Below, in pieces: positions 1,498 through 20,619 of a stretch of 37,698 bases of DNA. The notes under the pieces are model-generated. The model had not been told where the DNA came from. It made no database searches and was given only the letters and a program-made list of their open reading frames with translations. The DNA lies in NCBI GenBank assembly GCA_945870205.1, contig CAMBRI010000015.1:1-37698 (forward strand), read 5' to 3'. Each line of letters starts with the position of its first letter. The first letter of the stretch is position 1. This stretch comes from Sulfuritalea hydrogenivorans sk43H (GTDB lineage: Bacteria > Pseudomonadota > Gammaproteobacteria > Burkholderiales > Rhodocyclaceae). The translations under genes and the position numbers were made by a program.

Positions 1498-1510
1498 CGG
1501 GGCCGTCCTC

Positions 1511-2169: not shown

Positions 2170-3930
2170 TCAGCGCTTCACCGTCACAAAGGGCACCACC
2201 TGAGTGTATTCCGCGTCAAGGCTGACTGCTTCCTGGTGCTTGCCAAGAGCACGGGCAGCCTGGGCAAGAAATGGCTTTGCCGCAACTTCATCCGGATTTA
2301 GGTCTAGCGAAGTTCTAAGTTCACGTTCTGCATTGACGAAATCACGCAGTTGAACGAATGCAACGCCACGAGCCAATCGCAGCCTGGCCAAGTCTTTATT
2401 GCCTGGATTGTTCTGTTCGATCACCTGCTGGGTCAGGGAAAGCACATCCTTCGTTTCGCCGTTAAGGGCTTTTGCCAACAGCAAGTTTCCGAACACCTCA
2501 GGAGGGAGTTCAAGATCGCCAGTATTGCCGATGGCGGCGTTGAATACTCGTATCGACTGCTTAAGTGTTTCTATCCCCTGCGCAAACTGCTTGCGAGTAA
2601 GGTAGGCCAGACCAAGTTGGGACAAGGGGCGATAGTGCAACGGCGACAGACGGGCGTTATCGTTAAGGAACGCGACGTTGTCGCGCCACAGATTGTTTCG
2701 CAGCCACGTTGTCGTACCCATTGCGGAAATAATAGCTACGGCCAAGAATATCGGTAGCCATCGGGACCGTTGATACAGCAGTTGGGCGCCAAAGACCAGA
2801 ACACTACCGACAACAAGCGCCAACCCGTAGTTTGGCAAATAGGCACGGTGCTCAAACATCAGATCGCGAATCGGCAATACGCTTGACTCGACCGCATGGG
2901 CCAGGTAGTAGAAAAACAAGCCGAAACTGACCAGCGGAAAACGCTTGCGAATCAGGAATGCTACATACAAGACCAAGAGATGTCCAAGGAACAGCACCAC
3001 CGTTGGGTAAAGCCAAAGTGAGGTTCGCAGGGCAATTGCATAGTCCAGCCGTTGATCGACAGGCCAAAAGAACAGCCCGATGTAACGCCATAGCACTTCT
3101 TGCTGACTGGCGAAATAATCCATGCGGCTGAGCACGTCGTTTTCGGTGGTGAGGGATGCTATCGCCGAAGGCGAAATCAATCCGCCATGGCCGGTTGCGA
3201 GCCAAAGAAACTGCAGCGCCACGATGGAGGCCCCTACAGCTCCCGCTGCCATCCCCAGCAGCGTGCTCGGTTTCGCACTGGCTGCGTTGAACAGAAGCAG
3301 TTCGACGAGTACGATTGCAAAGGGAAGGGTGAAGCTATTCTGTTTGGTCAGAAACGCAGCCAGTGCAAGAAGAACAGCTCCCAAAAACCAGGGCCATCCG
3401 TTTCCCGTCAGGCGCCCCTTGAGATAGCACGCCAAGCAAGCGAGGTAGAAGAACGCGACCAGCGAAGACATCCGCTGCACAATGTAGGTCACAGCCTGGG
3501 TTTGCAACGGATGAAGCAGAAAGATCATGGCTACCGCAAATGGAAGCCACGCAGACTGCCACGTCAAACGTTCAACACTACCTCCCGCCCCAGCGATCGC
3601 CGGAGTGTTCAACAGCAGGCGTGTAAGAAGAAACGCTGCAAACCCTCCACCAAGATGAATCGCGATGTTCACCAGGTGGTACGCGGCGAGATTCAATGCC
3701 CCAATCTGGTAATTTAGGTAGAATGAATAGAAGGCAATAAATCTGGCTGGAGAATAGCCCCATATTTCTGCTAGGCTCCCGTTCTTGTAGATCAATGCTC
3801 GTTCCAGGATGGTGTGAAAATCATCCAGATAGAACGGGACATCCAGAGTATGGTAATACCCCATCGTCGTAGCCGCCGCCAACAGGCCAAACTGTAACGC
3901 AGTAATATTTTTATATATTGTATTTTTCAT
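2170..3930 (-). CDS. GT-C membrane glycosyltransferase with C-terminal TPRs (TMTC-like)
   Basis: A 586-aa polytopic inner-membrane protein with roughly ten hydrophobic helices, then a soluble part (about 430-575) containing TPR-like helical pairs. The first loop carries YLDD (residues 34-37), the acidic pair expected for a GT-C enzyme. Other conserved segments are HPLQTQAVTYIVQR (140-153) and EHRAYLP (360-366). This layout matches bacterial relatives of TMTC/PMT-type O-glycosyltransferases, which use polyprenyl-phosphate sugars on the exoplasmic side. Substrate and sugar are unknown. It leads the gspB-exeA unit, with a 2-nt gap to gspB, suggesting a secretion-linked role. The ATG is only 19 nt from the first possible gspD start on the other strand; no good Shine-Dalgarno is visible. 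Confidence 0.72.
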   Translation of the reverse strand: MKNTIYKNITALQFGLLAAATTMGYYHTLDVPFYLDDFHTILERALIYKNGSLAEIWGYSPARFIAFYSFYLNYQIGALNLAAYHLVNIAIHLGGGFAAFLLTRLLLNTPAIAGAGGSVERLTWQSAWLPFAVAMIFLLHPLQTQAVTYIVQRMSSLVAFFYLACLACYLKGRLTGNGWPWFLGAVLLALAAFLTKQNSFTLPFAIVLVELLLFNAASAKPSTLLGMAAGAVGASIVALQFLWLATGHGGLISPSAIASLTTENDVLSRMDYFASQQEVLWRYIGLFFWPVDQRLDYAIALRTSLWLYPTVVLFLGHLLVLYVAFLIRKRFPLVSFGLFFYYLAHAVESSVLPIRDLMFEHRAYLPNYGLALVVGSVLVFGAQLLYQRSRWLPIFLAVAIISAMGTTTWLRNNLWRDNVAFLNDNARLSPLHYRPLSQLGLAYLTRKQFAQGIETLKQSIRVFNAAIGNTGDLELPPEVFGNLLLAKALNGETKDVLSLTQQVIEQNNPGNKDLARLRLARGVAFVQLRDFVNAERELRTSLDLNPDEVAAKPFLAQAARALGKHQEAVSLDAEYTQVVPFVTVKR

Positions 3931-3949
3931 CGTGGCAACAGGATAAGCC

Positions 3950-6082
3950 TTGGCCTTGACACCAACGCATTATTTTGGCACAAAACTTTGCAGGGCTAAT
4001 CGATTGAATCCTTCTCACGCCATTCGCAGCTTGTTCCTCGCGGCTGCAGCTAGCTTCCTGTTGGCCGGATCACTTTTCGCAAAGGAAGAGGAAAAGGTCA
4101 TACTGAACTTTGTAAGCGTCGATATCGAGTCGGTGGCTAAAGCTATTGGTCAGATCACCGGAAAGAATTTCCTCGTTGATCCCCGTGTCAAGGGCACGGT
4201 AAACATCGTGTCTGCGACGCCGATCCCCCGTTCATTGACCTACGACGTCTTCCTGTCTGCCCTTCGTTTGCAGGGCTTTTCAGCGGTCGAGTCGGCCGGG
4301 GTGGTAAAACTGATTCCCGAGGCCGATGCCAAGTTCCAGAATGGCGTCACAACCGGACTGGATCGCGTGCGCGGCGACAAGATCGTAACCCATGTGTTTT
4401 CACTGAAGCATGAGTCGGCCAATCTCCTGATGCCCGTAATTAGGCCCATGGTGTCGCCGAACAACCCGATTGCTGCCTACCCTCAGAGCAATGTGCTGGT
4501 CATAACGGACTACGCCGAAAACCTCAAGCGCATCCAGGCCGTCATTGAGTCAATAGATCAACCGGGCAATCTGGCCCCGGAATTCATCACCTTGAAGAAC
4601 GCTACCGCTGCCGAAGTGGCCCAAACCATTCGTGCCTTGCTGGGTGACGCCGGCAGCGAGCCCAGCCAGAAACTCATCATTCATGTCGAACCCCGTTCGA
4701 ACAGCATTCTCGTTCGCGCTGATGACGCCTCACGCTTGGCAAGAATTCGCGAACTTGCCGCAAAGATTGATGCCGCGACTGACATTCCGGGCAGCGTACA
4801 TGTCATATCACTTAAGAATGCTGAAGCCGTAAAGGTTGCCGAGACACTAAAGAATATTGTTTCCGTATTCCAGACGACTGGCGCAGGTGCGTCATCTTCA
4901 ATCACCGGACCTAGTACGCCAGCGGTCGCCCCGGGTGCTACATCGACAGCAACGGCTGCAAACGCCACTGTGGCGGCGCCATCGTTTTCTACGTCTGCGG
5001 CGGGGCTCACCAATTCCACCAGTTCCGGCGTCTCGATTCAGGCGGATGCTGCCATCAACGCCCTCATTGTTACCGCGCCTGAGGCGATCTACCGAAACCT
5101 GCGTGCCGTCATTGAAAAGCTCGATACCCGCCGTTCCCAGGTTCATGTCGAAGCGCTGGTGGTAGAACTCAACTCAGACAAGGCGGCAGAATTCGGCATC
5201 CAATGGCAAAATTTGTCCGGATTCGAAGCAGGTAATGCCAATGCCATTAAGACCGTTGGCGGCACCAATTTTGGCGGTACTGGTCAGAACATCGTGTCGA
5301 CCGCGACCAACCTTGCTTCTGTGGGACGAGGCCTCAGCATTGGAAAGATGAAAGGGACCGTTATCATCCCGGGAACGACGACTGCCATCACCAGCCTTGG
5401 ATTGCTCGCTCGCATGCTCGAATCGACGGGTAGCGCCAATATCCTGTCGACACCGAACATCATGACACTGGACAATGAAGAGGCAAAGCTGTCTGTCGGA
5501 CAGAACATCCCTATTGTTACCGGGACCTACCAGCAGACCGCCGGCGGGCCGTCACCCTTTCAGACCATTGAGCGCAAGGATATCGGCCTGCTCCTCAAGA
5601 TAAAGCCGCAGATTTCCGAAGGTGCGATTCGCATGCGGATTTATCAGGAGGTATCCAGTGTCGTCAGCACCAGCGACACGCAACTCGCGGCTGCCCAGGG
5701 TGTCACAACAAACAAGCGCTCCGTGGACACCAACGTACTGGTTGATGACGGAGAAATCATAGTCATCGGCGGCCTGATTCAGGACAACTTTCAAGACCAG
5801 CGAGACCAGGTGCCGTTATTGGGCGACATACCCGTGCTCGGTGGCCTATTCCGCTATGACACCAAGCGGCATGTCAAGACCAACCTGATGGTCTTCATTC
5901 GTCCGCTGGTGGTCCGTGATGTTAGCGGATACCGCAACATCACGGCGGCGGGCTACGACGATATCCGCAGCAAGCAGGAAAATGAGGTTCCCAAGAATAC
6001 CTGGATGCTCCCTGACGAACGAGGCGCCGTCCTGCCACCGCTCAAGGGGAGCGCCACGCCTGTAACACCTGCCGCCCGTTGA
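3950..6082 (+). CDS. gspD: GspD, type II secretion outer-membrane secretin
   Basis: The secretin subunit that forms the outer-membrane channel, 710 aa from TTG 3950. A signal peptide (hydrophobic core about 28-43, cleavage after SLFA) is followed by N0 (about 50-125), N1 (148-203), N2 (212-275) and N3 (282-395, interrupted by an Ala/Ser/Thr-rich insert at about 310-358). The C-domain (400-655) carries the secretin signature VPLLGDIPVLGGLF at 621-634. A tail of about 50 residues follows. There is no ATG: TTG 3950 has AGGA at good spacing, while TTG 4004 would give a compact 25-residue signal peptide and more promoter room. The gene is first of the long gsp run; gspE follows after 10 nt. Confidence 0.93.
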   Translation: MALTPTHYFGTKLCRANRLNPSHAIRSLFLAAAASFLLAGSLFAKEEEKVILNFVSVDIESVAKAIGQITGKNFLVDPRVKGTVNIVSATPIPRSLTYDVFLSALRLQGFSAVESAGVVKLIPEADAKFQNGVTTGLDRVRGDKIVTHVFSLKHESANLLMPVIRPMVSPNNPIAAYPQSNVLVITDYAENLKRIQAVIESIDQPGNLAPEFITLKNATAAEVAQTIRALLGDAGSEPSQKLIIHVEPRSNSILVRADDASRLARIRELAAKIDAATDIPGSVHVISLKNAEAVKVAETLKNIVSVFQTTGAGASSSITGPSTPAVAPGATSTATAANATVAAPSFSTSAAGLTNSTSSGVSIQADAAINALIVTAPEAIYRNLRAVIEKLDTRRSQVHVEALVVELNSDKAAEFGIQWQNLSGFEAGNANAIKTVGGTNFGGTGQNIVSTATNLASVGRGLSIGKMKGTVIIPGTTTAITSLGLLARMLESTGSANILSTPNIMTLDNEEAKLSVGQNIPIVTGTYQQTAGGPSPFQTIERKDIGLLLKIKPQISEGAIRMRIYQEVSSVVSTSDTQLAAAQGVTTNKRSVDTNVLVDDGEIIVIGGLIQDNFQDQRDQVPLLGDIPVLGGLFRYDTKRHVKTNLMVFIRPLVVRDVSGYRNITAAGYDDIRSKQENEVPKNTWMLPDERGAVLPPLKGSATPVTPAAR

Positions 6083-6092
6083 TATCGTCCGC

Positions 6093-7607
6093 ATGACTAA
6101 CGAGGTATTGTCTGCTACCACTGGCGCATCGGCAGTGACGGCGCGCACTTTGCCGTACGCTTTTGCAAAGGCCAAGGGTGTTGTGCTCGTTTCGGTGCGT
6201 GATGGTCGCGCCGCATTGGCCTTGCGCTCCAATGCTTCCCTGGATGTTCTTGCTGAAGTACAACGCGTGCTCGGCATGCCCTTCGTGATTGAGCGTGTCA
6301 ATGCCGTGCGCTTTGACGAACTGATGGCGAGCGCATATGCCGCGGAGGGCGGCGCGATGGACGTGCGCGACTTTGAGCAGCATGTCGATCTGTCGCGCCT
6401 GATCCAGGACCTTCCTGAAGTTGATGACCTGCTGGATGCCCAGGATGGTGCACCCATTATTCGAATGATCAATGCGCTGCTCACCAATGCCTTGCGTGAG
6501 AACGCCTCGGATATCCACATTGAGCCCTTTGAATCGCGCTCGCTGGTCCGTTTCCGTGTCGATGGATCCCTGCGCGACGTCATCGAACCCAACCGTGCAA
6601 TCCACGCCGCACTGGTATCGCGCATCAAGGTGATGGCACAGCTGGATATCGCCGAAAAGCGGCTGCCGCAGGACGGCCGTATCGGTCTGCGCCTCGGTGG
6701 CCGCCCCGTCGACGTGCGGGTATCAACCATTCCGTCCGGTTATGGCGAGCGTGTCGTGCTGCGCCTGTTGGACAAGGAAGCCGGTCGGCTTGACCTGGCG
6801 AAACTTGGCATGGACGAAATCACCCTTGAGCGTATCAAGGGGCTGGCTCGTCAGCCGCACGGAATCCTCCTCGTCACGGGTCCCACGGGTTCGGGAAAAA
6901 CCACCACCCTATATGCGGCTCTCGGCCAGATCGATACCCGCAACATGAATGTCATGACGGTGGAAGACCCGATCGAGTATTACCTTGATGGCATTGGTCA
7001 GACCCAGGTCAATACCCGCATTGACATGACTTTTGCCAAGGCCTTGCGCTCGATCTTGCGGCAGGACCCTGATGTCATCATGATCGGCGAAATCCGTGAC
7101 CTCGAAACTGCCGAAATAGCTATCCAGGCAAGCCTAACCGGCCACCTTGTGCTTGCCACCCTGCACACCAATGATGCGGTTAGTTCGGTGACACGCCTGA
7201 TCGATATGGGTATCGAGCCATTCCTTCTCGCCTCCAGTCTTGTTGGCGTACTAGCCCAGCGACTGGTTCGCCAGTTGTGTCCTGATTGCAAACGCGCGGC
7301 ATCCATCGAAGCCACCGAACGCCACCTGATCGGCGAGAAAACTTCGCCGGACCGCATCTGGCATCCTGTTGGCTGCCCGACTTGCAACCAAACCGGCTAC
7401 CGGGGACGTAGCGGCATCTATGAACTGATGACGGTCGATGCGGCAACCCGCCGCCTGATCCACGACAGAGCGTCGGAGCCGGAACTGCAACGTAGCGCGC
7501 TGGAAGGCGGAATGACCAGCCTGCGCCAGGACGCCATGCGTGGCATTCTTTCCGGGCAGACGTCGCTGGAGGAAGTCCTTCGCGTTACTCGCGCTGAGGG
7601 CGCCTGA
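6093..7607 (+). CDS. gspE: GspE, type II secretion ATPase
   Basis: The cytoplasmic hexameric ATPase that drives pseudopilus assembly, 504 aa. It has an N-terminal GspL-interacting region, Walker A GPTGSGKTT (263-271), an Asp-box region ending in EDPIEY (291-296), Walker B around DVIMIGEIRD (327-336) and the His-box HLVLATLHTND (351-361). A zinc-binding tetracysteine is formed by CPDC (396-399) and CPTC (428-431). All catalytic motifs are intact and the length is normal. It lies 10 nt after gspD and 3 nt before gspF. The Cys4 module and the neighbouring GspL separate it from type IV pilus PilB. Confidence 0.95.
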   Translation: MTNEVLSATTGASAVTARTLPYAFAKAKGVVLVSVRDGRAALALRSNASLDVLAEVQRVLGMPFVIERVNAVRFDELMASAYAAEGGAMDVRDFEQHVDLSRLIQDLPEVDDLLDAQDGAPIIRMINALLTNALRENASDIHIEPFESRSLVRFRVDGSLRDVIEPNRAIHAALVSRIKVMAQLDIAEKRLPQDGRIGLRLGGRPVDVRVSTIPSGYGERVVLRLLDKEAGRLDLAKLGMDEITLERIKGLARQPHGILLVTGPTGSGKTTTLYAALGQIDTRNMNVMTVEDPIEYYLDGIGQTQVNTRIDMTFAKALRSILRQDPDVIMIGEIRDLETAEIAIQASLTGHLVLATLHTNDAVSSVTRLIDMGIEPFLLASSLVGVLAQRLVRQLCPDCKRAASIEATERHLIGEKTSPDRIWHPVGCPTCNQTGYRGRSGIYELMTVDAATRRLIHDRASEPELQRSALEGGMTSLRQDAMRGILSGQTSLEEVLRVTRAEGA

Positions 7608-7610
7608 ACC

Positions 7611-8843
7611 ATGCCGGCGTATCGCTACAGCGCACAAGATGTTTCAGGGTTGCTGGTATCGGGTGTGCTTGAAGCCGATACCGCGCGGCTTGCACGTTCC
7701 GCATTGCGCGAGAAGAAGCTCTACCCGGTGCAGGTCGATGCAGTTGGACGAGAGGAAGTATCCCGCGGCAAGGCGCCCAGCATCGCTCAATTCGGCCGGT
7801 GGCGGCGCGGATTGAGCAGCGCCCAATTGAGCCTGATGACCCGTCAGTTTGCCACCCTGCTCTCGGCAAGCCTTACGGTAGAAAAGGCACTCAGCGCATT
7901 GATCGATCAAACAGAAAACGAACTTACCCGGCAAATTCTCGCCGGGGTAAGGTCGGAAGTCCTTTCTGGCAGCACGCTACACCGTGCCCTTGGCCTCTAT
8001 CCGGCCACCTTCCCGGATATATATCGAGCGCTGGTCGGCGCCGGTGAGCAATCCGGAGAGTTGGACCAGGTCATGCTGAAACTAGCCGATTACACCGAAT
8101 CCAAGCAAGGTCTGCAACAGCGCCTGATCCTCGCCTTCATTTACCCCGCAATTGTCAGCCTTGTTGCATTCCTGGTGATTGTCGGCCTGATGACCTACGT
8201 CGTGCCCCAGATTGTTGGCGTCTTCCAGCGAACGCACCAGGCATTGCCCTTGCTGACGCGACTGCTCATTGGATTGAGCAACTTCCTGCTTGCCTGGGGT
8301 CCCTACTTGCTGGTGATCGCCGCCGGGCTTGGCTACGCGTTCCAGCAAGGGCTCAACAATCCGGTTCGACGCCGCAACTGGCACCAACTGATCTTGAAGA
8401 TGCCGGTCATCGGCCGGTTGACACGAAACCTGGGTTCGGCCCGGTTTGCCAGCACCCTTGCCATTCTGGTGAGCAGCGGTGTTCCTTTGCTGGCAGCCCT
8501 TCGCACTGGTGCTGATGTCATGGGCAATCTGGTCATGAAGCAAACGGTAGAGAATGCCGCCAACCTGGTAAGGGAGGGTGGTAGCTTGAGCCGCTCGCTG
8601 GCGCGGGACGAAGTTTTCCCCCCCGTGCTGATCCACCTGATTGCCAGCGGCGAATCGAGCGGCCGGCTGGACTACATGCTCGAGAAGGCGGCAGTACAGC
8701 AGGAATCAGAAGTGACCAACCGCATTGCCTTGCTCACCGGTATGCTTGAACCGCTGTTAATCGTGATCATGGGTGGCGTTGTTCTGTTGATCGTCCTTGC
8801 GATCCTCCTTCCGATCATCAACGTGAATCAACTGGTGCGCTGA
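7611..8843 (+). CDS. gspF: GspF, type II secretion inner-membrane platform protein
   Basis: The polytopic platform protein that couples GspE to pseudopilus growth, 410 aa. It has two repeated cytoplasmic GspF domains with the paired signatures GAGEQSGEL (143-151) and ASGESSGRL (345-353). Transmembrane segments lie at about 172-198, 218-246 and 376-402. The start MPAYRYSAQD is the usual family N-terminus. It begins 3 nt after gspE, and its TGA overlaps the ATG of gspC by one base (TGATG), indicating translational coupling. Confidence 0.95.
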   Translation: MPAYRYSAQDVSGLLVSGVLEADTARLARSALREKKLYPVQVDAVGREEVSRGKAPSIAQFGRWRRGLSSAQLSLMTRQFATLLSASLTVEKALSALIDQTENELTRQILAGVRSEVLSGSTLHRALGLYPATFPDIYRALVGAGEQSGELDQVMLKLADYTESKQGLQQRLILAFIYPAIVSLVAFLVIVGLMTYVVPQIVGVFQRTHQALPLLTRLLIGLSNFLLAWGPYLLVIAAGLGYAFQQGLNNPVRRRNWHQLILKMPVIGRLTRNLGSARFASTLAILVSSGVPLLAALRTGADVMGNLVMKQTVENAANLVREGGSLSRSLARDEVFPPVLIHLIASGESSGRLDYMLEKAAVQQESEVTNRIALLTGMLEPLLIVIMGGVVLLIVLAILLPIINVNQLVR

Positions 8844-9325
8844 TGAATGCTAAACGGATAGTGGTGTCGAAGCTTCTCGGGGTTGTTCGTCGTGGTCGTC
8901 CGGCGGGTCGGTTCGCGCTTGTGGTGTTGTTAGGTTTCGCCCTGGCCTGGCTCACCTGGCGGGTGGCCGGGCCGTCGCCGAGGGTCGTGTTGCCCAACCC
9001 AACGATCCCACCCAAATCGGCGCTTGCAGGCACGGTTGCCGCTGCCCACCTCTTCGGCGCGCCGGTGACACCGCAAGCGCAAACGACCGTCATGCCGGAT
9101 GTCGTTGTAATTGGCGTATTCGCCGAACTCGGAAAAACTCCCGGACGCGCCGTCCTTCTGGTGGACAAGCAGATCCAGATCGCAGCCACTGGAACAGAGA
9201 TTCGCCCCGGCGTCGTCGTAAAAGAGGTTGCCGCTGGCCATGTCGCCTTCTCCCGTGGCGGCGAGCCCATTTCCGTCCCGATTCAGCCTGGCAAGCCGAT
9301 GGCTGCTATCCAGTTGATTAAATGA
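8843..9325 (+). CDS. gspC: GspC-like type II secretion protein, HR domain only
   Basis: A short bitopic inner-membrane protein (160 aa) with a basic N-terminus, one transmembrane helix (about 23-41), a Pro-rich linker and a beta-rich domain (about 63-145) resembling the homology region (HR) of GspC, which contacts the N0 domain of GspD. It contains the pattern LFGAP...VVVIGVFA...GRAVLLVDK typical of HR domains. It ends soon after the HR, so the PDZ or coiled-coil domain of classical GspC is absent. Position directly after gspF, with a 1-nt overlap, supports the call. The alternative is a generic 'type II secretion protein N'-like HR protein of the same role. Confidence 0.75.
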   Translation: MNAKRIVVSKLLGVVRRGRPAGRFALVVLLGFALAWLTWRVAGPSPRVVLPNPTIPPKSALAGTVAAAHLFGAPVTPQAQTTVMPDVVVIGVFAELGKTPGRAVLLVDKQIQIAATGTEIRPGVVVKEVAAGHVAFSRGGEPISVPIQPGKPMAAIQLIK

Positions 9326-9412
9326 TGTTATTTTAAGTGCTTGCGTGCAAGCCATGAACGCCCATATATCGAAAGCCATATGCAAAAAAAAATGTCCAAA
9401 ATTCGAAACAAT

Positions 9413-9441
9413 TTGATATTATTCGTACGCAACGGTAGAGA
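9413..9441 (+). promoter_or_regulatory. possible sigma70-type promoter before the lipoprotein gene
   Basis: TTGATA (9413-9418) and TAGAGA (9436-9441) are separated by 17 nt in the AT-rich 185-bp gap between gspC and the lipoprotein gene. The -35 box is good and the -10 box is weak. A separate promoter would make sense, because the lipoprotein gene also has its own terminator and could be expressed above the level of the secretion machinery. This is inferred from spacing and composition only. Confidence 0.25.
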
Positions 9442-9510
9442 GAGATCGGCATTATTTTGCTGTCATCCTCGTCACCAAATTCGATCGGTTTTACAAAAAG
9501 GGGAATAAGA

Positions 9511-10734: not shown

Positions 10735-10749
10735 TCGTTTAGCCTCAAA

Positions 10750-10783
10750 AAGCCCGGCCACACACGTGGCCGGGCTTTTTTTT
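10750..10783 (+). terminator. intrinsic terminator after the lipoprotein gene
   Basis: A perfect 12-bp GC-rich stem (10750-10761 with 10766-10777) with an ACAC loop runs into eight T residues. It begins 15 nt after the lipoprotein stop codon and 18 nt before gspG. It should end most lipoprotein transcripts, so gspG and later genes need read-through or another promoter. The A-tract before the stem also makes it partly functional on the other strand. Confidence 0.88.
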
Positions 10784-10800
10784 CTGGAAGGATTTTGGCT

Positions 10801-13189: not shown

Positions 13190-13695
13190 ACTCGATGTCC
13201 GGGCGACGTACCCCTATCCTCGCCCTTCATTCCGGGCGTGCCAACGGATTCACCTTGATCGAGGTATTGACGGTCGTTGCCTTGCTTGGGGTGGTTTCGC
13301 TTGCGGTAGCAATCAATTTTTCCCGCGGAGACGAGGCGATCCTGCGCGATGAATCCGCACATCTGGCCTTGGATATTGAAATGGCCATTGATGCCGGGCG
13401 CTACACCGGGCGTCCGTTGGTCATGCGCATTGGAGGAACTAACCGGTATCGCTTTCTGCAAAAATCCCGCGATGACCTTTGGGGAATACCGGATGATCCG
13501 GCCTTGCACAGCGAACGCACCCTTGCCGCGGACGTATCGATCACCTCGATTCGGGTCGGCAACCAAAGTCTGACCCAAGACAATCCGGTGCTACTCGGCC
13601 GCATGCCGATGCTGCCTGTCGTCATCGGGCTGGCCTTGAACGGGCGCCAGGTGGTGATTACCGCCAGCGCAGTGGGCAGAGTAGCCATCCAATGA
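13186..13695 (+). CDS. gspH: GspH, minor pseudopilin
   Basis: A 169-aa minor pseudopilin. The long basic leader ends at G21^F22 (ANG^FTLIEV, Glu at +5), followed by the hydrophobic helix LTVVALLGVVSLAVAI and a GspH/FimT-like domain. GTG 13186 overlaps the end of the ligase gene (GTGA). An ATG at 13195 is an alternative giving an 18-residue leader. In the pseudopilus tip complex GspH links GspI/J/K to GspG. gspI follows closely. Confidence 0.9.
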   Translation: MNSMSGRRTPILALHSGRANGFTLIEVLTVVALLGVVSLAVAINFSRGDEAILRDESAHLALDIEMAIDAGRYTGRPLVMRIGGTNRYRFLQKSRDDLWGIPDDPALHSERTLAADVSITSIRVGNQSLTQDNPVLLGRMPMLPVVIGLALNGRQVVITASAVGRVAIQ

Positions 13696-13708
13696 AAATG
13701 TGGATGTA

Positions 13709-14089
13709 ATGTCTCCGATGCGCCTCCGCCATGCCGGGTTTACCCTGTTCGAGGTACTTGTCGCGCTGGCCATACTTGCCGTGGCGCTCTCGGCCGTAAC
13801 CCGTCTGACCGTCATGGGTACCGATACAGTGGGCGACATGCGCAACCGCACCCTCGCCTTGTGGATCGCTGAAGATCGTTTGGCCTTCCGCCGTGCCGCA
13901 CGGCAACTCCCTGACATCGGGAAAAGCGAAGGGACTGTTACCCAGGCAGGCATCGGGTTTGTCTGGACAGAGGATGTCAAACCCACGCCGAACCGAGGTA
14001 TTCGCCGGGTTGAGATTTCTGTCGCGCTTGACGGGCCGACGCGAAACTACGCCCTGGCTGGCCTGACAGGGTTTCTGTCGACAGAATGA
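13709..14089 (+). CDS. gspI: GspI, minor pseudopilin
   Basis: A 126-aa minor pseudopilin that starts the tip complex with GspJ and GspK. Leader MSPMRLRHAG is cleaved before FTLFEVLVALAILAVALSA, with Glu at +5. ATG 13709 has GGA five nt upstream; GTG 13700 and ATG 13718 are alternatives that change only the leader. It begins 13 nt after gspH, and its TGA overlaps the gspJ ATG (ATGA). Confidence 0.92.
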   Translation: MSPMRLRHAGFTLFEVLVALAILAVALSAVTRLTVMGTDTVGDMRNRTLALWIAEDRLAFRRAARQLPDIGKSEGTVTQAGIGFVWTEDVKPTPNRGIRRVEISVALDGPTRNYALAGLTGFLSTE

Positions 14090-14718
14090 TGCGGTACGGG
14101 CGAGGTGCATCGGGGTTTACGCTGGTCGAGTTGCTCGTCGCCATCAGCCTGCTCGCGGTGGTATCGGGCATGGCCTACCGCGGCCTCGACCAAATTCTAT
14201 CTGCTCAAAAACGCATTGCGGCGGAGCAGAAGCGGTGGCGCGAGATTGATCTCGCGCTCAATCTGCTGGTGGAGGACCTTTCGCAGATGGCGCGGCGCCC
14301 GGTTCGTATCGGCAAGGAAATCGAGGCCGCATTGGCCGTCAAGGAGACGGTAGCGCCGGACTTGCCTTTTGACGCACAGCTCAAATTTACACGTCATTCC
14401 CCGCTTGACACGAGCGGAAGTCTATCCGCCAACAGTGCCCGAGTTGGGTACCGGATCGTTGCCGGAAATCTCGAACGCATGACGTGGTACCACCTTGATT
14501 TTCCGTCCGAGGTGGTACCCGATATCGCGCTGGTCCTTGACCAGGTCGCCGCCATCCGCCTGCGCTATATGGACCCCTTTGGCATCTGGCAGAACCAGTG
14601 GTCAGTGCCCGTCGCGACTCCGCTCTTGCCCCGTGCGGTTGAACTGACACTCGGATTGCAGGACGGCATTACGATCACCCGCACAGTCGTCATACCGGCA
14701 GGATTCTGGAGCCCTTGA
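14086..14718 (+). CDS. gspJ: GspJ, minor pseudopilin
   Basis: A 210-aa minor pseudopilin. Leader MMRYGRGASG is cleaved before FTLVELLVAISLL (Glu at +5). The beta domain ends in the family pattern PRAVELTLGLQDG...TRTVVIP. It overlaps gspI (ATGA) and gspK (TTGA) by 4 nt each, so the tip subunits are made in coupled fashion. Length is normal for GspJ. Confidence 0.93.
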   Translation: MMRYGRGASGFTLVELLVAISLLAVVSGMAYRGLDQILSAQKRIAAEQKRWREIDLALNLLVEDLSQMARRPVRIGKEIEAALAVKETVAPDLPFDAQLKFTRHSPLDTSGSLSANSARVGYRIVAGNLERMTWYHLDFPSEVVPDIALVLDQVAAIRLRYMDPFGIWQNQWSVPVATPLLPRAVELTLGLQDGITITRTVVIPAGFWSP

Positions 14719-15671
14719 GCCTCAAGATGCTACGCCACTGTCCAGTTCATATGCCCCACCGACAACAAGGCGTTGCCATTGTGGTCGCGATCCTTATTGT
14801 GGCACTCGCAGTCATCGCCGGTACCAGCGTGATCATGCACCTGTCCAACTGGGAAAGTCTGGTGCGTGCGGAAATGTCGCGCGCACAACTGAAGCAGGTG
14901 GCCCTGGGGGGCCTGATGTGGGCGCGTACGGCCTTGCGGAATGATGCCGCACAAAATAACGTAGATCACCTTGATGAGTTCTGGAATACCGAGCTACCGC
15001 TCAGCACTGCCGAAGGCGATGTTGAGATAGGCGGCTCGATTGCCGATCGCCAGGGATTTTTCAACCTGGCGAACCTTCTCAACGAAGACGGTTCAGTCAA
15101 TGAACGATCCTACCTTGGCTTCGTACGGATGTTACAGGCGCTGGATCTGCCGATAACGCTTGCCGACGCGCTGATCGACTGGACCACACCCTCGAGTGTT
15201 TCGCGCCGGACCGGTGCGCCCAAGGATGCCGCCTATCTGGCATCAACACCGCCTTACTTTTCTGCCAACCGTCGCCTCACAGAATTGGCGAATCTTCGCT
15301 TCATAAATGGCTATACAGCGGATATCATTGGCCGGCTGGAGCCCTACGTCACCGTCTTGCCCAGGATTACGCGGGTAAACGTGAATACGGCTCCCGCAGT
15401 GGTATTGCTGGCCTACGTCCCGGGCCTGACGCTGGATGAAGCGCGGACGATTGTCAGTGGCCGCAAGGTATATTTCAGGGACGAAACTGACTTTCGGACG
15501 CGACTACCGCGCAAGGATCTTGCTTTTAATCACAACGACATCGGCGTGGCCACCAATTTTTTTCTTGTTCGCGTTTCGGTTCGCCGAGGTTCTGACCTGA
15601 TGAAACTCAACGCACTGATTGAACGTGTCGCGCAGAATGCGCCTACCATCGTCTGGGAGAAATTCGAGTAA
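14715..15671 (+). CDS. gspK: GspK, large minor pseudopilin at the pseudopilus tip
   Basis: A 318-aa pseudopilin that caps the tip. Processing is predicted at QQG^VAIVV; the residue at +5 is Val rather than Glu, the known exception of GspK. The helix VAIVVAILIVALAVIAG is followed by the large alpha domain and the segment RVNVNTAPAVVLLAYVPGL, a helix-hairpin-like part typical of GspK. TTG 14715 overlaps gspJ (TTGA). In-frame ATG 14727 and ATG 14751 (giving the short leader MPHRQQG) are alternatives. The stop codon shares one base with the gspL start (TAATG). Confidence 0.92.
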   Translation: MSLKMLRHCPVHMPHRQQGVAIVVAILIVALAVIAGTSVIMHLSNWESLVRAEMSRAQLKQVALGGLMWARTALRNDAAQNNVDHLDEFWNTELPLSTAEGDVEIGGSIADRQGFFNLANLLNEDGSVNERSYLGFVRMLQALDLPITLADALIDWTTPSSVSRRTGAPKDAAYLASTPPYFSANRRLTELANLRFINGYTADIIGRLEPYVTVLPRITRVNVNTAPAVVLLAYVPGLTLDEARTIVSGRKVYFRDETDFRTRLPRKDLAFNHNDIGVATNFFLVRVSVRRGSDLMKLNALIERVAQNAPTIVWEKFE

Positions 15672-16915
15672 TGATCACGCTGGTAATTCGTGTCCCGGAA
15701 ACGGTTGCCGATCTGGCGCAAAGCCTATGGGCCCGGGTCAGTTCAGATGGTGCGCTACTTGAGCATGGTAGCGGCCTCGATGCACTCCCTGCGGGCGGCT
15801 ATCGCCAGTCCTGGCTGCTTCTGCCGGATTCCTGCGTTTCCTACGCATCTATAACGGTTCCTGACGCCAAACTGCTAAAAAGCGCGGTGGCCCTTGGCTA
15901 CGCCGTGGAGGATCACATTGTCGACGAGGCCGACAACGTCCATATCACCGTTATCGACAGCGACCCCAAGGCCAAGCAGATGCGTGTTGCCATCGTCAAT
16001 AAGGCATGGCTGGCCGCAATGCTTTCTGCATTGGCGGAACGGGACATCGCACCCGACGCCGCCATTCCAGTCAGCCTCTGCATCGACCCACCGGAAAAGT
16101 CATGGACCATTCTTCTCGATGGCCAAAGCGGCACGCTGCGGCGCGGGCCTGCCGATTTGCTGCCTATCGACGCTGCCCGCGACGGGCCACCGCACTTGCT
16201 ACAGATGGCTCTGCAGGACGCCCGAAACAATGCCGACAGCCCGGAAAGCCTCGTGGTGTGGAGTGCAGCCAGAGCAGGGGAAGCAACCGGCATCGACCCC
16301 GCCCGCTGGCAGGAAAGCCTGGGGCTGCCCGTCCGCTATCTCGGTAATTGGAATTGGCATCAGGTTCCAAAACAGACGTCAGTCAATCTCCTTCAAGGAG
16401 CCTTCCGCCCCAGGCGCAAGATGTCATTTGACTGGCTCGACTCGTTGCGCCCGGTGGCAACCGCCACCATGGCGATCGGAGCCGTCTGTTTCGGGGCCTA
16501 CGCCTTGTACGGTGCCAAGCTGCTTGCCGAACGGGCGGTGCTTAATTCCCGGATGCAGGCAACGTTCAAGGACGTATTTCCTGCTGCCAACGTCATCCAC
16601 GTCCCCTCGGGTATGCGCCGCGAGCTGGCTCAGTTGCGCCATGCGGCAGGGCTTCAAGACAGTGGCGACCTCGTGCCCTTGTTGGCTCAATTCACCACAC
16701 AGGCGAACGGGCTCACACCCGGTGCCGTCACCTACCTCGGCTACGACAAAGGACGACTGGATCTGAAAGTAATGCTTCCCAGCGAAGCCGTGCTTGTCAA
16801 TGCGGGCGACGGACTGCGCAGTGCGGGCCTTGCCGTATCCATGGCCGAGGTGCAGCCCTCCGGTGGCGGGGTTCAGGCGCGCCTGTCGATCGCATCAGAC
16901 AGGGGGGCGCCATGA
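15671..16915 (+). CDS. gspL: GspL, type II secretion inner-membrane/ATPase-recruiting protein
   Basis: A 414-aa bitopic protein that recruits GspE to the membrane. An actin-like cytoplasmic domain (about 1-245) ends with the GspL signature VNLLQGAF (238-245). A transmembrane helix lies at about 261-281, followed by a periplasmic ferredoxin-like domain ending in the repeated beta pattern near the C-terminus. It starts at ATG 15671 inside the gspK stop and overlaps gspM by 4 nt (ATGA). Its presence separates this locus from type IV pilus operons. Confidence 0.93.
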   Translation: MITLVIRVPETVADLAQSLWARVSSDGALLEHGSGLDALPAGGYRQSWLLLPDSCVSYASITVPDAKLLKSAVALGYAVEDHIVDEADNVHITVIDSDPKAKQMRVAIVNKAWLAAMLSALAERDIAPDAAIPVSLCIDPPEKSWTILLDGQSGTLRRGPADLLPIDAARDGPPHLLQMALQDARNNADSPESLVVWSAARAGEATGIDPARWQESLGLPVRYLGNWNWHQVPKQTSVNLLQGAFRPRRKMSFDWLDSLRPVATATMAIGAVCFGAYALYGAKLLAERAVLNSRMQATFKDVFPAANVIHVPSGMRRELAQLRHAAGLQDSGDLVPLLAQFTTQANGLTPGAVTYLGYDKGRLDLKVMLPSEAVLVNAGDGLRSAGLAVSMAEVQPSGGGVQARLSIASDRGAP

Positions 16916-17433
16916 CAACCGCTGTAGAACAGCCATCGCGGGCCGACCCAATTGGCGTGCGGCAGCGTATTGCAAACGTCCTTGGCCGTTTCCCGACCGA
17001 TAGGGCCTGGCTTCTGGGGTGGCCAGTGGTGTTGATACTGCTGGGCTACGCCGGCATCTTCCTCCACAAGTCCATCCTCGATCTTGACCGCCAACTACCG
17101 CAATTGCGCGCGGAAGCTTCATTGGTCACCACCCAGGCATCGGAAGTCAGGCAGTTGCAGTTGGCTGGTGCCCGGAAACGGCTATCGGACCCTCTTGCCG
17201 CCAAGGAGGCTGTGTTGGCGGCACTCAGAAGCGCCCAGATAGAGAAGGACTCCACAAAATTGGATGCGCCCGCTGCTGGCCAGATCAACGCATCCCTTTC
17301 TTCGGTCAAGTTCGATCTCTGGATTCAAACAGTTGAAAACCTGTTCAACGAATCGGGCATCGTGCTGACCACTGCCCAGCTTACTCAGCTGAGCCCCGGA
17401 TTTGTACGGGTTGAAGCCACGTTCACTTACTGA
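16912..17433 (+). CDS. gspM: GspM, type II secretion inner-membrane protein
   Basis: A 173-aa bitopic protein that pairs with GspL in the inner-membrane platform. Short cytoplasmic N-terminus, one transmembrane helix (about 34-52), a coiled-coil-prone segment (about 55-110) and a small ferredoxin-like periplasmic domain ending in GFVRVEATFTY. The sequence is weakly conserved, as usual for GspM, so the call leans on topology, size and position between gspL (ATGA overlap) and gspN (TGATG overlap). Confidence 0.88.
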   Translation: MTTAVEQPSRADPIGVRQRIANVLGRFPTDRAWLLGWPVVLILLGYAGIFLHKSILDLDRQLPQLRAEASLVTTQASEVRQLQLAGARKRLSDPLAAKEAVLAALRSAQIEKDSTKLDAPAAGQINASLSSVKFDLWIQTVENLFNESGIVLTTAQLTQLSPGFVRVEATFTY

Positions 17434-18176
17434 TGAAATTCAAACTTCCTTCTCGACGCTGGTTGTGGCCGCTTGTTGGTGTCTATCTCATCGCTCTTGC
17501 GGTACTGGCCCCGGCTGGACTGATTGGTTGGGGGTTTGAGTTCGCCAGCAAGGAGCGCATTCTCTTTAGCAATACGTCGGGAACAGTGTGGAGCGGCGCC
17601 GCTGACCTTGTTTCGGCCGACAAAGGCAATCGCATCGGCCGCTACCGCTGGCGTTTTCTTGGTGCCCCCCTAATGACTGGTACGCTCCAGGTGGCCGTAG
17701 ACAGCGGCACACAGCCCACCGCCACCATTTCGCTAACGGTTCGCCGTCTCACCATCGATCGTCTGGTGCTCCAACTGCCGCTAGAAGCCCTCGCCGGTGT
17801 CGTGCCGGAGATCGGCAAATACGGTATCGACGGCAAGCTTACGGTTACCGCGGAAAACCTTGCTTTATCGCTACGAAGCATCAACGGCAATCTCACTGGC
17901 GAACTGGCCGAGATCCGTTCCCCAATCACTCGCATGAATACCATCGGATCCTATCGGATCTCTGTTGTCGGCCACGGCGAACAAGGCGATGTTTCGGTCG
18001 CGACGCTCCCAGGTAGTGGACTGTTGCTGGAAGGAGGTGGCAAATTTACGCCCCCCAAGCACCTCACCTTCAATGGCAGCCTCACCGCGGCGCCCGAGCA
18101 GAGGGAACGCATCTCCGGGTTGCTGGCGGCTGTCGGCGGCAATGGTGACCGGATTCCCATCGTCATAGGCAACTAA
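17433..18176 (+). CDS. gspN: GspN, type II secretion accessory protein
   Basis: A 247-aa protein with an N-terminal membrane anchor (about 10-30) and a beta-rich periplasmic part resembling GspN (T2SSN). Recognisable segments are FSNTSGTVWSGAADL and the C-terminal LTFNGSLTAAPEQRE...LLAAVGG, where the family reads close to 'G...A....L..lL..LG'. GspN is dispensable in several systems and its exact role is unsettled. It is the last gene of the run, overlapping gspM by one base, and ends 42 nt from the convergent glycosyltransferase gene. No strong terminator is visible between them. Confidence 0.87.
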   Translation: MKFKLPSRRWLWPLVGVYLIALAVLAPAGLIGWGFEFASKERILFSNTSGTVWSGAADLVSADKGNRIGRYRWRFLGAPLMTGTLQVAVDSGTQPTATISLTVRRLTIDRLVLQLPLEALAGVVPEIGKYGIDGKLTVTAENLALSLRSINGNLTGELAEIRSPITRMNTIGSYRISVVGHGEQGDVSVATLPGSGLLLEGGGKFTPPKHLTFNGSLTAAPEQRERISGLLAAVGGNGDRIPIVIGN

Positions 18177-18218
18177 GCACTTGGCCACACCGTCGCCCAG
18201 CAGTCGCGGCTGGAAAAC

Positions 18219-19424
18219 TCACATCTTGGGAGCATCGAGCACCCCCTGGTATGCCGAGGCCATTTGCTTCGCCACCCGATCGATAGCAAACTCGACATCG
18301 AGCCGCCGCCGGCCAGCAATACCCAGTTCAGGCCGGTTTGCGGCGGCAAGTATTTTCTCGGCAAGATCCGCAGCGCTGCCGGGCTGTGCCAAGAGACCGG
18401 TAATTCCATCCTGCACTACCCAGCCCACGCCCGAATCGTCAAGCCTGGATGCCACGATTGGGCGCGAAAATGCCATGGCCTCCAGCAGGACCATACCGAA
18501 CGCCTCGGTTTTTTCCACTGAGGGCAGGCAAAAGACATCGCAGGTCGCCATAAGGGCGTGCGCGTGATCATCATCCACGTAGCCCAGCAGGCGTACCTTG
18601 TTCGCCACGCCATGTCGGAGAATTTCCCGCTGAAGAAAATCCTGCTCCTCTCCCTTGCCCGCGATCAGCACCTGCACATCGCCAAGATGGGCTGTCGCCT
18701 CGATCAGATGCTGAAATCCCTTGTAGTGTGCAAGCCGACCGAGCGCGAAAACCCTTAAAGATGCGTTCCCCCAGGTTCGGCCTGCCCACGCGGAAACCTC
18801 TGCCAGACCGGGAGAAAAACGAGTTGTATTGAGCCCCAGGGGGATCACCTGACACCGGTCTTTAACTGCTTGCAATGGCGTGCTATTGGCAAGATACGGC
18901 GGTGACGTAGCGACAATTGCCCTTGCGCCGCGCAATATCGCGTGCTCAAGCGGTTGGTAGATGCGGTAGGCGAGCCCGAGTTTGCGTTGTGTTACCGGAG
19001 TGATTACGTCGGCGTGCCAATGCACCACCCAAGGAATGCTCCTTGCGCGACCTGATGCCAGTGCCCAGAATGCCGATGTGTTCGGCAGGTGCAGATGAAG
19101 CAAGTCCGGTTTAAAGTCATCTATGGCATTGTCGAGCCATGACAAGAAGCTGGGGCTGACCGGGGCGTAAAGCACACTCCCGAAGCAGGGTACCCGCCGC
19201 ACCTGAACGTCGCCATCCAGTTCACGTCCCGAACATCCAAGCTCATCGGCACGCCTGTGCGCATGGACCAGCGCCAAGGTCTGGACGGATTCGTCGGCAA
19301 GTGCCACCAACAGATCACGCATGAAGGTTTCAATGCCTCCGGGATGCGGATGGTAGAACTTGCCGATGTGCAAAACTTTTGTGCTCAAATTATTGTTCTT
19401 TCGGGAGCAGCTTGAAAATGCCAT
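18219..19424 (-). CDS. GT4-family glycosyltransferase
   Basis: A 401-aa GT-B-fold enzyme of family GT4, a cytoplasmic sugar transferase for glycan or polysaccharide building. N-terminal glycine-rich acceptor loop HPHPGGIETF (25-34), donor-domain start FALGRLAHYKG (226-236) and the EX7E motif in EAFGMVLLE (307-315). It resembles WbdB/PimB-like mannosyltransferases, but the sugar cannot be told. The start is uncertain: ATG 19424, TTG 19433 and TTG 19388 (just before STKVLHIGKFYHP) are all possible and none has a clear Shine-Dalgarno. It is divergent from the DPM1-like gene and convergent with gspN. Confidence 0.86.
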   Translation of the reverse strand: MAFSSCSRKNNNLSTKVLHIGKFYHPHPGGIETFMRDLLVALADESVQTLALVHAHRRADELGCSGRELDGDVQVRRVPCFGSVLYAPVSPSFLSWLDNAIDDFKPDLLHLHLPNTSAFWALASGRARSIPWVVHWHADVITPVTQRKLGLAYRIYQPLEHAILRGARAIVATSPPYLANSTPLQAVKDRCQVIPLGLNTTRFSPGLAEVSAWAGRTWGNASLRVFALGRLAHYKGFQHLIEATAHLGDVQVLIAGKGEEQDFLQREILRHGVANKVRLLGYVDDDHAHALMATCDVFCLPSVEKTEAFGMVLLEAMAFSRPIVASRLDDSGVGWVVQDGITGLLAQPGSAADLAEKILAAANRPELGIAGRRRLDVEFAIDRVAKQMASAYQGVLDAPKM

Positions 19425-19510
19425 TTTCAACAATGGCGATGGCTAAGCGATGATAATATTGTAAGACTCTCCGCGTCTTGACGCCCACGACCAGTTTGCG
19501 CGACTCACCA

Positions 19511-20242
19511 ATGGCACCTAACACAAGCGAAACACTTTCAATTGCCGCAAAACGCGATGGCGTATTGATTGTAATTCCGGCCTACAACGAAGAAGAAAGT
19601 ATCGTCCTGGTTATAGAAGACATCCGCCAGCATAGCTCGGCCGATATCGTCGTGGTCGATGACTGTAGCAGTGACAGAACCGCCGCCGTCGCACGAAGCA
19701 ATGGCGTCCACGTGCTTTCGCTAGCTCTGCGCCTCGGCGCTTGGGGGGCCGCCCAGGCCGGGGTTCGCTACGCGCAGCGCGAACACTATCAGATTGTCGT
19801 CACCATGGACGCCGATGGCCAGCACCTCGGGGGCGAATTACCGGGCCTGCTTCAACGTTTGCAAGTTGGCGACGGTAATGTTGTCATCGGTTCGTACCCG
19901 GAACGCGGTAGTCCGGCAAGGAAGTTTGCTTGGCGTATTTTTCGGGCGCTTACCGGATTTTCCTTCCAGGATCTGACGTCAGGATTTCGCGCTTACGATC
20001 GGCAAGCGATAGCGGCAATCGCATCCCGAGAGGCGTCGTTGATCGAATATCAGGACATCGGAATTCTCATGCTGCTGCGCAAGGCCGGAGCCAAGGTTGT
20101 GGAACATCCGGTATCCATGCGCCCACGCCTGTCCGGGGCATCGCACATATTCTCGTCGTGGCTGGTCGTTGTGTTGTACATGGCCGAAACACTGATCCTC
20201 TGCCTGGCTCGTTGGCATGTTCACCGTATTCGCAACGCATGA
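19511..20242 (+). CDS. DPM1-like GT2 glycosyltransferase (polyprenyl-phosphate sugar synthase type)
   Basis: A 243-aa GT-A enzyme of family GT2. Motifs: IPAYNEE (22-28), VVDDCSSD (48-55) and the metal-binding DADGQH (100-105), plus the DLTSGFRAYDR segment characteristic of dolichol/polyprenyl-phosphate mannose synthases. It would load a hexose from NDP-sugar onto polyprenyl phosphate at the cytoplasmic face; there are no long C-terminal membrane helices beyond a hydrophobic stretch near 220-235. ATG 19511 gives a natural start; TTG 19478 is an alternative. It overlaps the DUF2304 gene by 4 nt (ATGA), a common pairing that supports the subfamily call. Confidence 0.84.
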   Translation: MAPNTSETLSIAAKRDGVLIVIPAYNEEESIVLVIEDIRQHSSADIVVVDDCSSDRTAAVARSNGVHVLSLALRLGAWGAAQAGVRYAQREHYQIVVTMDADGQHLGGELPGLLQRLQVGDGNVVIGSYPERGSPARKFAWRIFRALTGFSFQDLTSGFRAYDRQAIAAIASREASLIEYQDIGILMLLRKAGAKVVEHPVSMRPRLSGASHIFSSWLVVVLYMAETLILCLARWHVHRIRNA

Positions 20243-20619
20243 TCACTCACCACACTACCTCTGCCATTTTGGGCATTGCCTTGGCTGCTGCCATATTCGT
20301 CCTGATCCGGCGGGACCACCTGCGAATCCGCTATTCCGTGTGGTGGCTGGCCGTGGCAGTCTCGGCGCTGGCCTTGGGGCTGTTCCCAGGCCTGATAGAT
20401 CCCGCAGGAAATGCCCTCGGCGTGGCCTACCCGCCCACCCTGATCATCATTCTTGGCCTTGCTGCCTTGCTGATAAAGATGCTGGTCATGGATATCGAGT
20501 ACTCACGGCAGGAGCGAAATTTGCGCCGACTGACCCAACGGCTGGCAATCTACGAGGCAGGGCAGCAAGGAGATGGGGGTAACGGAGCAAGGCCATCCTC
20601 GGAATCGACCGGCAAATAG
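20239..20619 (+). CDS. DUF2304 small membrane protein
   Basis: A 126-aa protein with three hydrophobic helices (about 8-23, 34-50, 61-83), then a charged helix with VMDIEYSRQERNLRRLTQRLAIYE and a polar Ser/Gly tail. This is the layout of DUF2304 proteins, which are often encoded directly after DPM1-like GT2 genes and probably form a membrane partner for them. ATG 20239 overlaps the GT2 stop (ATGA), deciding the start. Function within the pair is not established; anchoring or lipid-sugar handling is an inference. Confidence 0.8.
   Translation: MITHHTTSAILGIALAAAIFVLIRRDHLRIRYSVWWLAVAVSALALGLFPGLIDPAGNALGVAYPPTLIIILGLAALLIKMLVMDIEYSRQERNLRRLTQRLAIYEAGQQGDGGNGARPSSESTGK

Follow-up and report, generated by a model that had tools for sequence, protein, structure and literature searches.

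PglL-type enzymes attach a polyprenyl-diphosphate glycan to Ser/Thr of proteins, a donor class other than that of the pair formed by DPM1-like synthases and glycosyltransferases of fold C (GT-C), and TfpO and TfpW have roles in pilin glycosylation. PglL of Vibrio cholerae influences type II secretion, and DegP is among the periplasmic proteins that it glycosylates (extract of PMC6901666). The GacI-GacJ-GacL set of rhamnan clusters, in which GacJ is the DUF2304 protein, makes a lipid-phosphate sugar that GacL is proposed to add extracytoplasmically (extract of PMC8327497). TMTC enzymes, for their part, are described as carrying a DD motif and a donor-contacting lysine, and prokaryotes hold full-length TMTC homologues that are mostly uncharacterised (extract of PMC7801869). 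Here, we compare with these systems a 37,698-nucleotide stretch of Sulfuritalea hydrogenivorans sk43H (CAMBRI010000015.1 of assembly GCA_945870205.1; the entire contig C15, hereafter the window), in which a GT-C enzyme with a tetratricopeptide repeat (TPR) domain, a PglL-like ligase and a glycosyltransferase of family 2 (GT2) with a DUF2304 partner are encoded in and beside a type II secretion system (T2SS) locus. The original prediction, made from the sequence of this stretch, had joined these enzymes into a possible secretion-linked protein O-glycosylation module.

The reading that we favour, tentatively, is that a TMTC-like, polyprenyl-phosphate-sugar-dependent glycosylation cassette is embedded in the T2SS locus and probably modifies exported proteins. 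In this scheme, the GT2, partnered in the membrane by DUF2304, would charge polyprenyl phosphate with a monosaccharide at the membrane's inner face; a putative flippase would turn the lipid-linked sugar over; and the TMTC-like GT-C would pass the sugar, on the periplasmic side, to proteins that its TPR domain binds. Judged by its spacing, the GT-C gene may share a transcript with gspB and exeA, and the gene for the separate PglL ligase may share one with those of the minor pseudopilins. The best candidates for acceptors would be passengers or builders of the T2SS, namely the pseudopilins, the exoproteins and a serine/threonine (S/T)-rich lipoprotein encoded between gspC and gspG. The enzymes concerned are the following:

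2170-3930, minus strand: TMTC-like GT-C (residues ~1-430) with a TPR domain (431-586), heading the GT-C-gspB-exeA run (structure model, conserved residues)
11384-13189, plus strand: PglL-type O-oligosaccharyltransferase (PglL_A, Wzy_C and Wzy_C_2 over cut-off; match to 9rmk_A)
18219-19433, minus strand: glycosyltransferase of family 4 (GT4), the cassette's fourth gene (Glycos_transf_1, 116 bits)
19511-20242, plus strand: DPM1-like GT2 of the polyprenyl-phosphate sugar synthase type (Glycos_transf_2, 80 bits; phmmer match to DPM synthase)
20239-20619, plus strand: DUF2304 (GacJ-like) small membrane protein (PF10066, 84.5 bits)

The GT-C/TPR enzyme was predicted at 2170-3930, and the open reading frame (ORF) found there on the minus strand encodes 586 amino acids (aa) whose modelled structure agrees with that assignment. 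Pfam returned TPR matches alone for this protein, every one below cut-off. The AlphaFold model, built on an alignment of 43 natural sequences, reached a predicted local distance difference test score (pLDDT) of 90.2 and a predicted template modelling score (pTM) of 0.91, and its residues ~3-440 aligned with the GT-C enzymes AglB (3waj, Z 21.9), Pmt1-Pmt2 (6p25, Z 20.6) and undecaprenyl phosphate-bound ArnT (5f15, Z 20.2), with 327-357 residues aligned at a root-mean-square deviation of 4.1-4.7. This GT-C match came from a second structural comparison, in which residues 431-586 matched the TPR domain of O-GlcNAc transferase (OGT; 4n39, Z 16.5); the 50 Foldseek matches listed were TPR-type or other helical-repeat proteins. 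Across the 43 rows of the alignment (the window's protein and 42 relatives), D36 and K196 are invariant and D37 is at least 90% conserved; matched by eye, D36/D37 and K196 correspond to the DD motif and the donor-binding lysine reported for TMTCs (extract of PMC7801869). A DUF1736 region (PF08409) was absent from the Pfam matches of the GT-C at E up to 0.01, and the protein is therefore called TMTC-like and not filed as a TMTC. A search of plasmids with the GT-C gave no match.

The donor side of the cassette is assigned by family and by recurrence. The GT2, predicted to be DPM1-like, matched dolichol-P-mannose synthase by phmmer (E 5e-9) and, by homology, would act on polyprenyl phosphate; the PF10066 score of DUF2304 (cut-off 25.5) was obtained in a longer frame, 19930-20619, of which 20239-20619 is the separate protein. 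A scan of GTDB contigs with the GT-C alignment yielded 79 loci, from the best 80 of 542 matches, and a search of the window's order provided 18 of 19 loci, with L087 lacking an assignable ORF and L072 omitted as the same place as L119. In a quick tree with long branches, the window's GT-C fell into a seven-row set (SH-like approximate likelihood-ratio test (SH-aLRT) 99) with those of Desulfocapsa (L112), Thiomargarita (L113), Methylothermaceae (L114 and L118), Alteromonas halophila (L115) and Parachitinimonas caeni (L119), and an eight-row set (SH-aLRT 97) added a deltaproteobacterium (L120). Four of these seven other clade members (L112, L114, L115 and L120) have GT-C, GT2 and DUF2304 within 4 kb. 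DUF2304 lies at most 6 kb from the GT-C in four of the seven, against 4 of the 90 remaining GT-C loci (Fisher p 0.0006). The window GT2 is 46-52% identical to the GT2s of L112, L114 and L115 and 39% identical to that of L120, and a matching GT4 also occurs in L114 (48%) and L115 (36%). In L120, DUF2304 and GT2 are fused in one protein (PF10066 78.5 bits, PF00535 86.6 bits) with the GT-C directly after it; modelled as one chain, the fusion reached pTM 0.89, and its GT2 part matched DPM synthase at Z 22.

The same partnership appears, independently, from the side of DUF2304, which occurs in 11 of 399 genomes of the order sample, the window's included. Five of the seven clade genomes searched, those of the window, L112, L114, L115 and L120, hold exactly one DUF2304 each, on the GT-C contig, that of the window's genome lying 16 kb from the GT-C; whole-genome searches found none in L118 and L119. 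Three of the 10 other DUF2304 loci in the order (L272, L273 and L274) show the run GT-C/TPR-GT4-GT2-DUF2304 on one strand. Their GT2s (52-55%), GT4s (40-41%) and DUF2304s (39-42%) resemble those of the window, with the GT-C just 23-24% identical; these GT-Cs had been missed by the order search (E up to 1e-15) and were found via DUF2304 alone. At the remaining seven loci, the GT2 is a different one (27-34% identity) or is missing, and the stretches fetched hold no GT-C. Thus GT-C, GT4, GT2 and DUF2304 form one cassette, with GT4 matches near it in L114, L115 and L272-L274, and by these identities the donor half appears conserved and the transferase half diverged, as would be expected if the transferase adapts to its acceptor. 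The donor link between a DPM1-type enzyme and the GT-C, as originally predicted, is accordingly well supported, and we hold this pairing with considerable confidence; the GT4 was absent from the parts first listed, as was the lipoprotein gene at 9514-10734.

Some further features of these loci were seen by eye or in passing. Small proteins with several helices, resembling EmrE/ArnE-type flippases by eye, adjoin GT2 and DUF2304 at three loci without a GT-C (L269 8418-8759, L275 10681-11064 and L277 2363-2710) and are candidate flippase partners. Several GT-C profile matches per locus, some maybe of TPRs only, occur at L117, L122, L127, L141, L150, L155 and L188, which belong to Bacteroidota, Nitrospiraceae, Geobacteraceae and Desulfobacteraceae. 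SoxY- and SoxB-like genes stand near a GT-C locus in two genomes (L073 4150-8216 and L272 10657-11095), maybe by chance.

The PglL-like ligase predicted at 11384-13189 is genuine by Pfam cut-offs and lies inside the gsp gene run. PglL_A (28.8 bits, cut-off 25), Wzy_C (57.6) and Wzy_C_2 (74.5) were all over cut-off, and phmmer matched the protein to the solved 'Oligosaccharyltransferase' chain 9rmk_A (E 1.1e-20); NCBIfam gave no match. Because the donor class of PglL differs from that of the DPM1/GT-C pair, the three enzymes do not form the single lipid-sugar pathway that had been proposed. The relatives sample contains PglL homologues with 26-34% identity to the window's; of 29 PglL-homologue loci in other genomes, 21 show a pilin-like N-terminal match no more than ~1.5 kb away, and one, L015, a weak exeA-type match. 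Within the window's genus, PglL homologues at L016-L032 adjoin one or two pilin-like genes and are probably pilin O-glycosylation units. The window PglL was also tried as a class-wide marker and rejected: 368 other genomes of the class sample gave no match to it at E up to 1e-50 (the best match found anywhere was 1e-61, at 33% identity). Whether pglL is conserved within gsp runs was thus judged from the 80 T2SS stretches described below and from short PglL loci only. Since a link between PglL and the T2SS is published for V. cholerae (extract of PMC6901666), the idea of O-glycosylation coupled to the T2SS is not new; the placement of pglL inside a gsp run is the unusual part here.

The remaining genes place these enzymes inside a T2SS locus, as had been predicted:

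478-1593, minus strand: exeA-type AAA ATPase of the T2SS (ORF; AAA_22, 100.3 bits)
1511-2167, minus strand: gspB (Pfam T2SSB, 56.1 bits, cut-off 28.4)
3950-6082, plus strand: gspD secretin, divergent from GT-C (TIGR02517, 605.9 bits, over cut-off)
6093-7607, plus strand: gspE ATPase (tblastn, 56-61% identity to GspE-annotated records)
7611-8843, plus strand: gspF (syntenic tblastn matches at other T2SS loci)
8843-9325, plus strand: gspC (Pfam T2SSC, 27.7 bits, cut-off 27)
9514-10734, plus strand: orphan lipoprotein rich in serine, threonine, alanine and proline (S/T/A/P) (signal peptide and cysteine by eye)
10747-10783, plus strand: terminator-like hairpin with U tract, 3' of the lipoprotein gene (RNA fold)
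10795-11229, plus strand: gspG major pseudopilin (TIGR01710, 190.5 bits, over cut-off)
13186-18176, plus strand: gspH (13186-13695), gspI (13700-14089), gspJ (14086-14718), gspK (14715-15671), gspL (15671-16915), gspM (16912-17433) and gspN (17433-18176) (ORFs; syntenic tblastn matches at other T2SS loci)
20708-37472: surface-polysaccharide cluster, context outside the cassette (translations; Pfam for 20708-21781 and 24699-28469)

The T2SS core from gspC to gspN is thus present in one cluster, with gspD and gspG over NCBIfam cut-offs, gspB and gspC over Pfam cut-offs and the others resting on syntenic matches; gspB passed the Pfam cut-off and fell below that of NCBIfam (44.1 vs 100). The ORF at 478-1593 is presumably exeA, named from gene order, and the listed GTG probably lies upstream of its true start. 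The minus-strand run GT-C/TPR, gspB, exeA diverges from gspD-E-F-C, the lipoprotein gene, gspG, pglL and gspH-N. The T2SS locus makes up the left half of the window, followed on the right by GT4 (minus strand), GT2, DUF2304 and the surface-polysaccharide cluster, so that the entire T2SS cluster separates the GT-C from GT4, GT2 and DUF2304. The polysaccharide cluster holds GT2, AsnB-like, multi-glycosyltransferase, methyltransferase, Wzt, Wzm, RmlA, RmlD and RmlB genes, several of them named from their translations. Read from the sequence, the GT-C stop and the gspB start are 2 nucleotides (nt) apart, the pglL stop and the gspH start overlap by 4 nt, and GT2 and DUF2304 likewise overlap by 4 nt. 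The GT-C/gspB and PglL/gspH junctions are operon-like. The window's genome (4.44 Mb in 391 contigs, 85% complete, 4% contaminated) has a GC content of 60-68% in three other stretches, and 26 congener loci have a median of 63% (range 56-69%); at 55%, the window lies below both, and the contig may therefore be foreign, horizontally acquired or mis-binned, which would alter the owner of the contig and not its encoded content.

Candidate acceptors were sought among the neighbouring proteins. The lipoprotein encoded at 9514-10734 contains 90% S/T/A/P over residues 254-283 (counted from a TTG at 9457), the richest 30-residue segment among the 30 window proteins scored (0.90). It matches no Pfam or NCBIfam family, and homologues were found in none of 60 relatives, leaving its own genome alone among 61. 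From its composition and place, it is a candidate glycosylation substrate. The region 10735-10800 folds at -31.6 kcal/mol (z -5.1), and because this hairpin lies between the lipoprotein gene and gspG, gspG and the downstream genes may have their own promoter; a pattern scan listed no terminator 3' of the lipoprotein gene, despite the strong fold. At the Parachitinimonas caeni locus, a 756-aa S/T-rich ORF without a Pfam family (L072 6597-8867) stands between the T2SS gene cluster and the GT-C and, judged by eye, is possibly a surface-layer-like cargo; it too is a candidate substrate.

Beyond the window's clade, the GT-C family has a recurrent neighbour of another kind. Of 18 order loci, 15 have a prepilin gene, called by a scripted sequence motif and not by family search, at most 1.2 kb upstream of the GT-C and on its strand, as do 19 of 79 contig loci (34/97 together), against 0 of 335 other ORFs of at least 300 aa (Fisher p ~5e-25); these control ORFs were drawn from the GT-C loci themselves, more than 4 kb from the GT-C, and are not independent. 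Prepilin genes next to the GT-C suggest that, in several clades of the family, the acceptors are exported proteins of type IV filaments. In the open-access library searched, no paper combined TMTC with pilin, and none brought tetratricopeptide together with pilin glycosylation, a glycosyltransferase and type IV pili. At one locus, in Desulfococcus (L169 3579-11593), GspD-, ExeA-, GspE- and GspF-like matches stand in a row with a prepilin-like gene and the GT-C, an arrangement resembling an MSHA-type pilus locus with a GT-C.

Within the window's own clade, T2SS genes stand near the GT-C in two of the seven other members. In P. caeni, gspE, F and G and pseudopilin-like genes are near the GT-C and gspD is ~10 kb away; GspG exceeds its curated threshold (163.6 vs 88.85); the best matches of GspE and GspF are T2SS families, below cut-off. 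In L120, the GT-C has nearby a gspB that passes the Pfam cut-off and an exeA-type ATPase with a GspA domain. A rough estimate puts chance proximity near 1% per genome (~35 kb of 4 Mb), so that two of seven hints at a link and does not prove it. T2SS- or pilus-type machinery matches also occur at most 9 kb from the GT-C outside the clade, at L121, L169, L175, L183 and four order loci.

Several results weigh against the reading of an export-directed cassette. Eighty T2SS stretches of the window's family and order were examined (34 from the family, 6/6 from congeners and 40 order places from other families), selected from GspD lists covering 51 other genomes with a match, the congeners and 68 other genomes; 71 of them are at least 12 kb and nine are shorter, and several show part of the gsp genes only. 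GT-C, DUF2304 or PglL was found in none of the 80, and a related GT2 in one. None of the 36 sampled congeners and confamilials had a GT-C match (E up to 1e-10). By the terms of the original prediction, a neighbourhood not conserved in close relatives would speak against it, and in these relatives it is not conserved; what stands of its interpretation is the pairing of the GT-C with GT2/DUF2304 and a genuine PglL, without a conserved secretion-linked module. A wider order search placed GT-Cs in four other confamilial genomes, and the three of these that were fetched (L080, L082 and L085) fall outside the window's clade in the tree. The three order genomes that bear the cassette have gspD on other contigs (G339 and G531) or at least ~88 kb off (G057), and in A. 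halophila, which has the full cassette, gspD is likewise on another contig. A GT2 lies within 3 kb of the GT-C in 15 of 18 order loci and 22 of 79 contig loci, compared with 64 of 335 control ORFs, so that its proximity stands out among the order loci alone; for DUF2304 within 6 kb, the counts are 8/79 and 0/18 loci vs 15/335 control ORFs. No prepilin neighbour is visible in the window's own GT-C clade, where L112 and L113 start at the contig edge. An S/T/A/P-rich loop of GspD was dropped as a PglL substrate because 12 of 68 other GspDs reach the same richness. Protein glycosylation is a prediction from gene content, and both the L115 cassette and the window's GT2/DUF2304 border rml genes, those of the window within the polysaccharide cluster.

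This last point leads to the main rival, decoration of a polysaccharide in the manner of GacI/J/L, in which GT2 and DUF2304 make a polyprenyl-phosphate sugar, the GT-C adds it, outside the cytoplasm, as a side branch to the polysaccharide of the adjoining rhamnose cluster, and the T2SS is a mere neighbour. Such logic is known from rhamnan clusters (extract of PMC8327497), Wzm/Wzt- and RmlA/D/B-like genes lie within 20708-37472, RmlA, RmlD and RmlB matches come after the L115 cassette, and the order DUF2304 loci include Wzm/Wzt matches at L270, L271, L275 and L278 and Rml matches at L275 and L277. However, the GT-C has a TPR domain and a wider family that adjoins prepilin-like genes, it stands in the gspB-exeA run outside the polysaccharide cluster, and the DUF2304 loci without a GT-C have a different GT2 or none. 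We judge polysaccharide decoration rather unlikely, and a protein acceptor somewhat likelier than a polysaccharide one. A mosaic, formed when recombination or horizontal gene transfer joined a T2SS cluster to a surface-glycan island, would leave GT-C, GT2 and DUF2304 cooperating, PglL separate and none of them tied to secretion. It would fit the arrangement shared by none of the 80 T2SS stretches, the low GC content of the window, and a GspD just 48-55% identical to those of the six congeners (of 30) that have one. The 2-nt and 4-nt junctions with gsp genes would be improbable from loose juxtaposition, and two more clade members lie near T2SS genes; we consider the mosaic unlikely. A contig that fuses unrelated DNA is very improbable: although the assembly is fragmented and the GC content of the window lower, the glycosylation and gsp genes have intact frames that overlap or lie almost end to end, so that any false join would need to fall inside gene runs.

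Returning to the TMTC-like cassette, the enzyme set recurs across distantly related bacteria, its occurrence inside a T2SS cluster is rare, and a sugar coating of secreted proteins is plausible from the gene arrangement. As to a coupling of glycosylation to secretion, we lean towards doubting it. The strongest version, a two-route unit dedicated to the T2SS in which the GT-C fed by GT2/DUF2304 and PglL are co-transcribed with gsp genes and glycosylate pseudopilins or cargo before export, is unlikely; if true, it would represent a single branch of a broader bacterial TMTC-like family acting on the proteins of type IV filaments, with glycosylation built into the gene run of a secretion machine. 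Of greater use is what emerges across the family, namely that certain genes keep reappearing beside those for bacterial TMTC-like GT-C/TPR proteins. In several clades the partner is prepilin-like; the window's clade, among others, has GT2 and DUF2304, often joined by GT4. These partners open a genetic route to what bacterial TMTC-like enzymes modify, and the natural DUF2304-GT2 fusion offers a handle on the role of DUF2304.

Compared with described systems, the window shares with pilin glycosylation by PglL, TfpO or TfpW the placement of a transferase gene beside its pilin gene, whereas its pglL lies in a pseudopilin gene run with no major type IV pilin. With V. cholerae it shares a PglL-type O-oligosaccharyltransferase tied to the T2SS; there the link is functional, with no mention of a gsp operon in the extract, and in the window it consists of the position of pglL in the gsp gene run (extract of PMC6901666). 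Like eukaryotic TMTCs, the window's enzyme has a GT-C membrane domain with the DD motif and the lysine followed by a TPR domain, and a DPM1-like GT2 as the putative source of polyprenyl-phosphate sugar. Unlike them, it is bacterial, has a TPR domain of ~155 aa vs ~ten repeats and no DUF1736 match, and belongs to a cassette that adds a DUF2304 partner and a GT4. As in GacI/GacJ/GacL and EpaI/EpaJ of streptococci and enterococci (extract of PMC8327497), a GT2 gene is followed directly by DUF2304, together with a polytopic transferase of polyprenyl-phosphate sugar and with rhamnose and ATP-binding cassette (ABC)-transporter polysaccharide genes nearby, but the GT-C of the window bears a TPR domain and sits in the gspB-exeA run.

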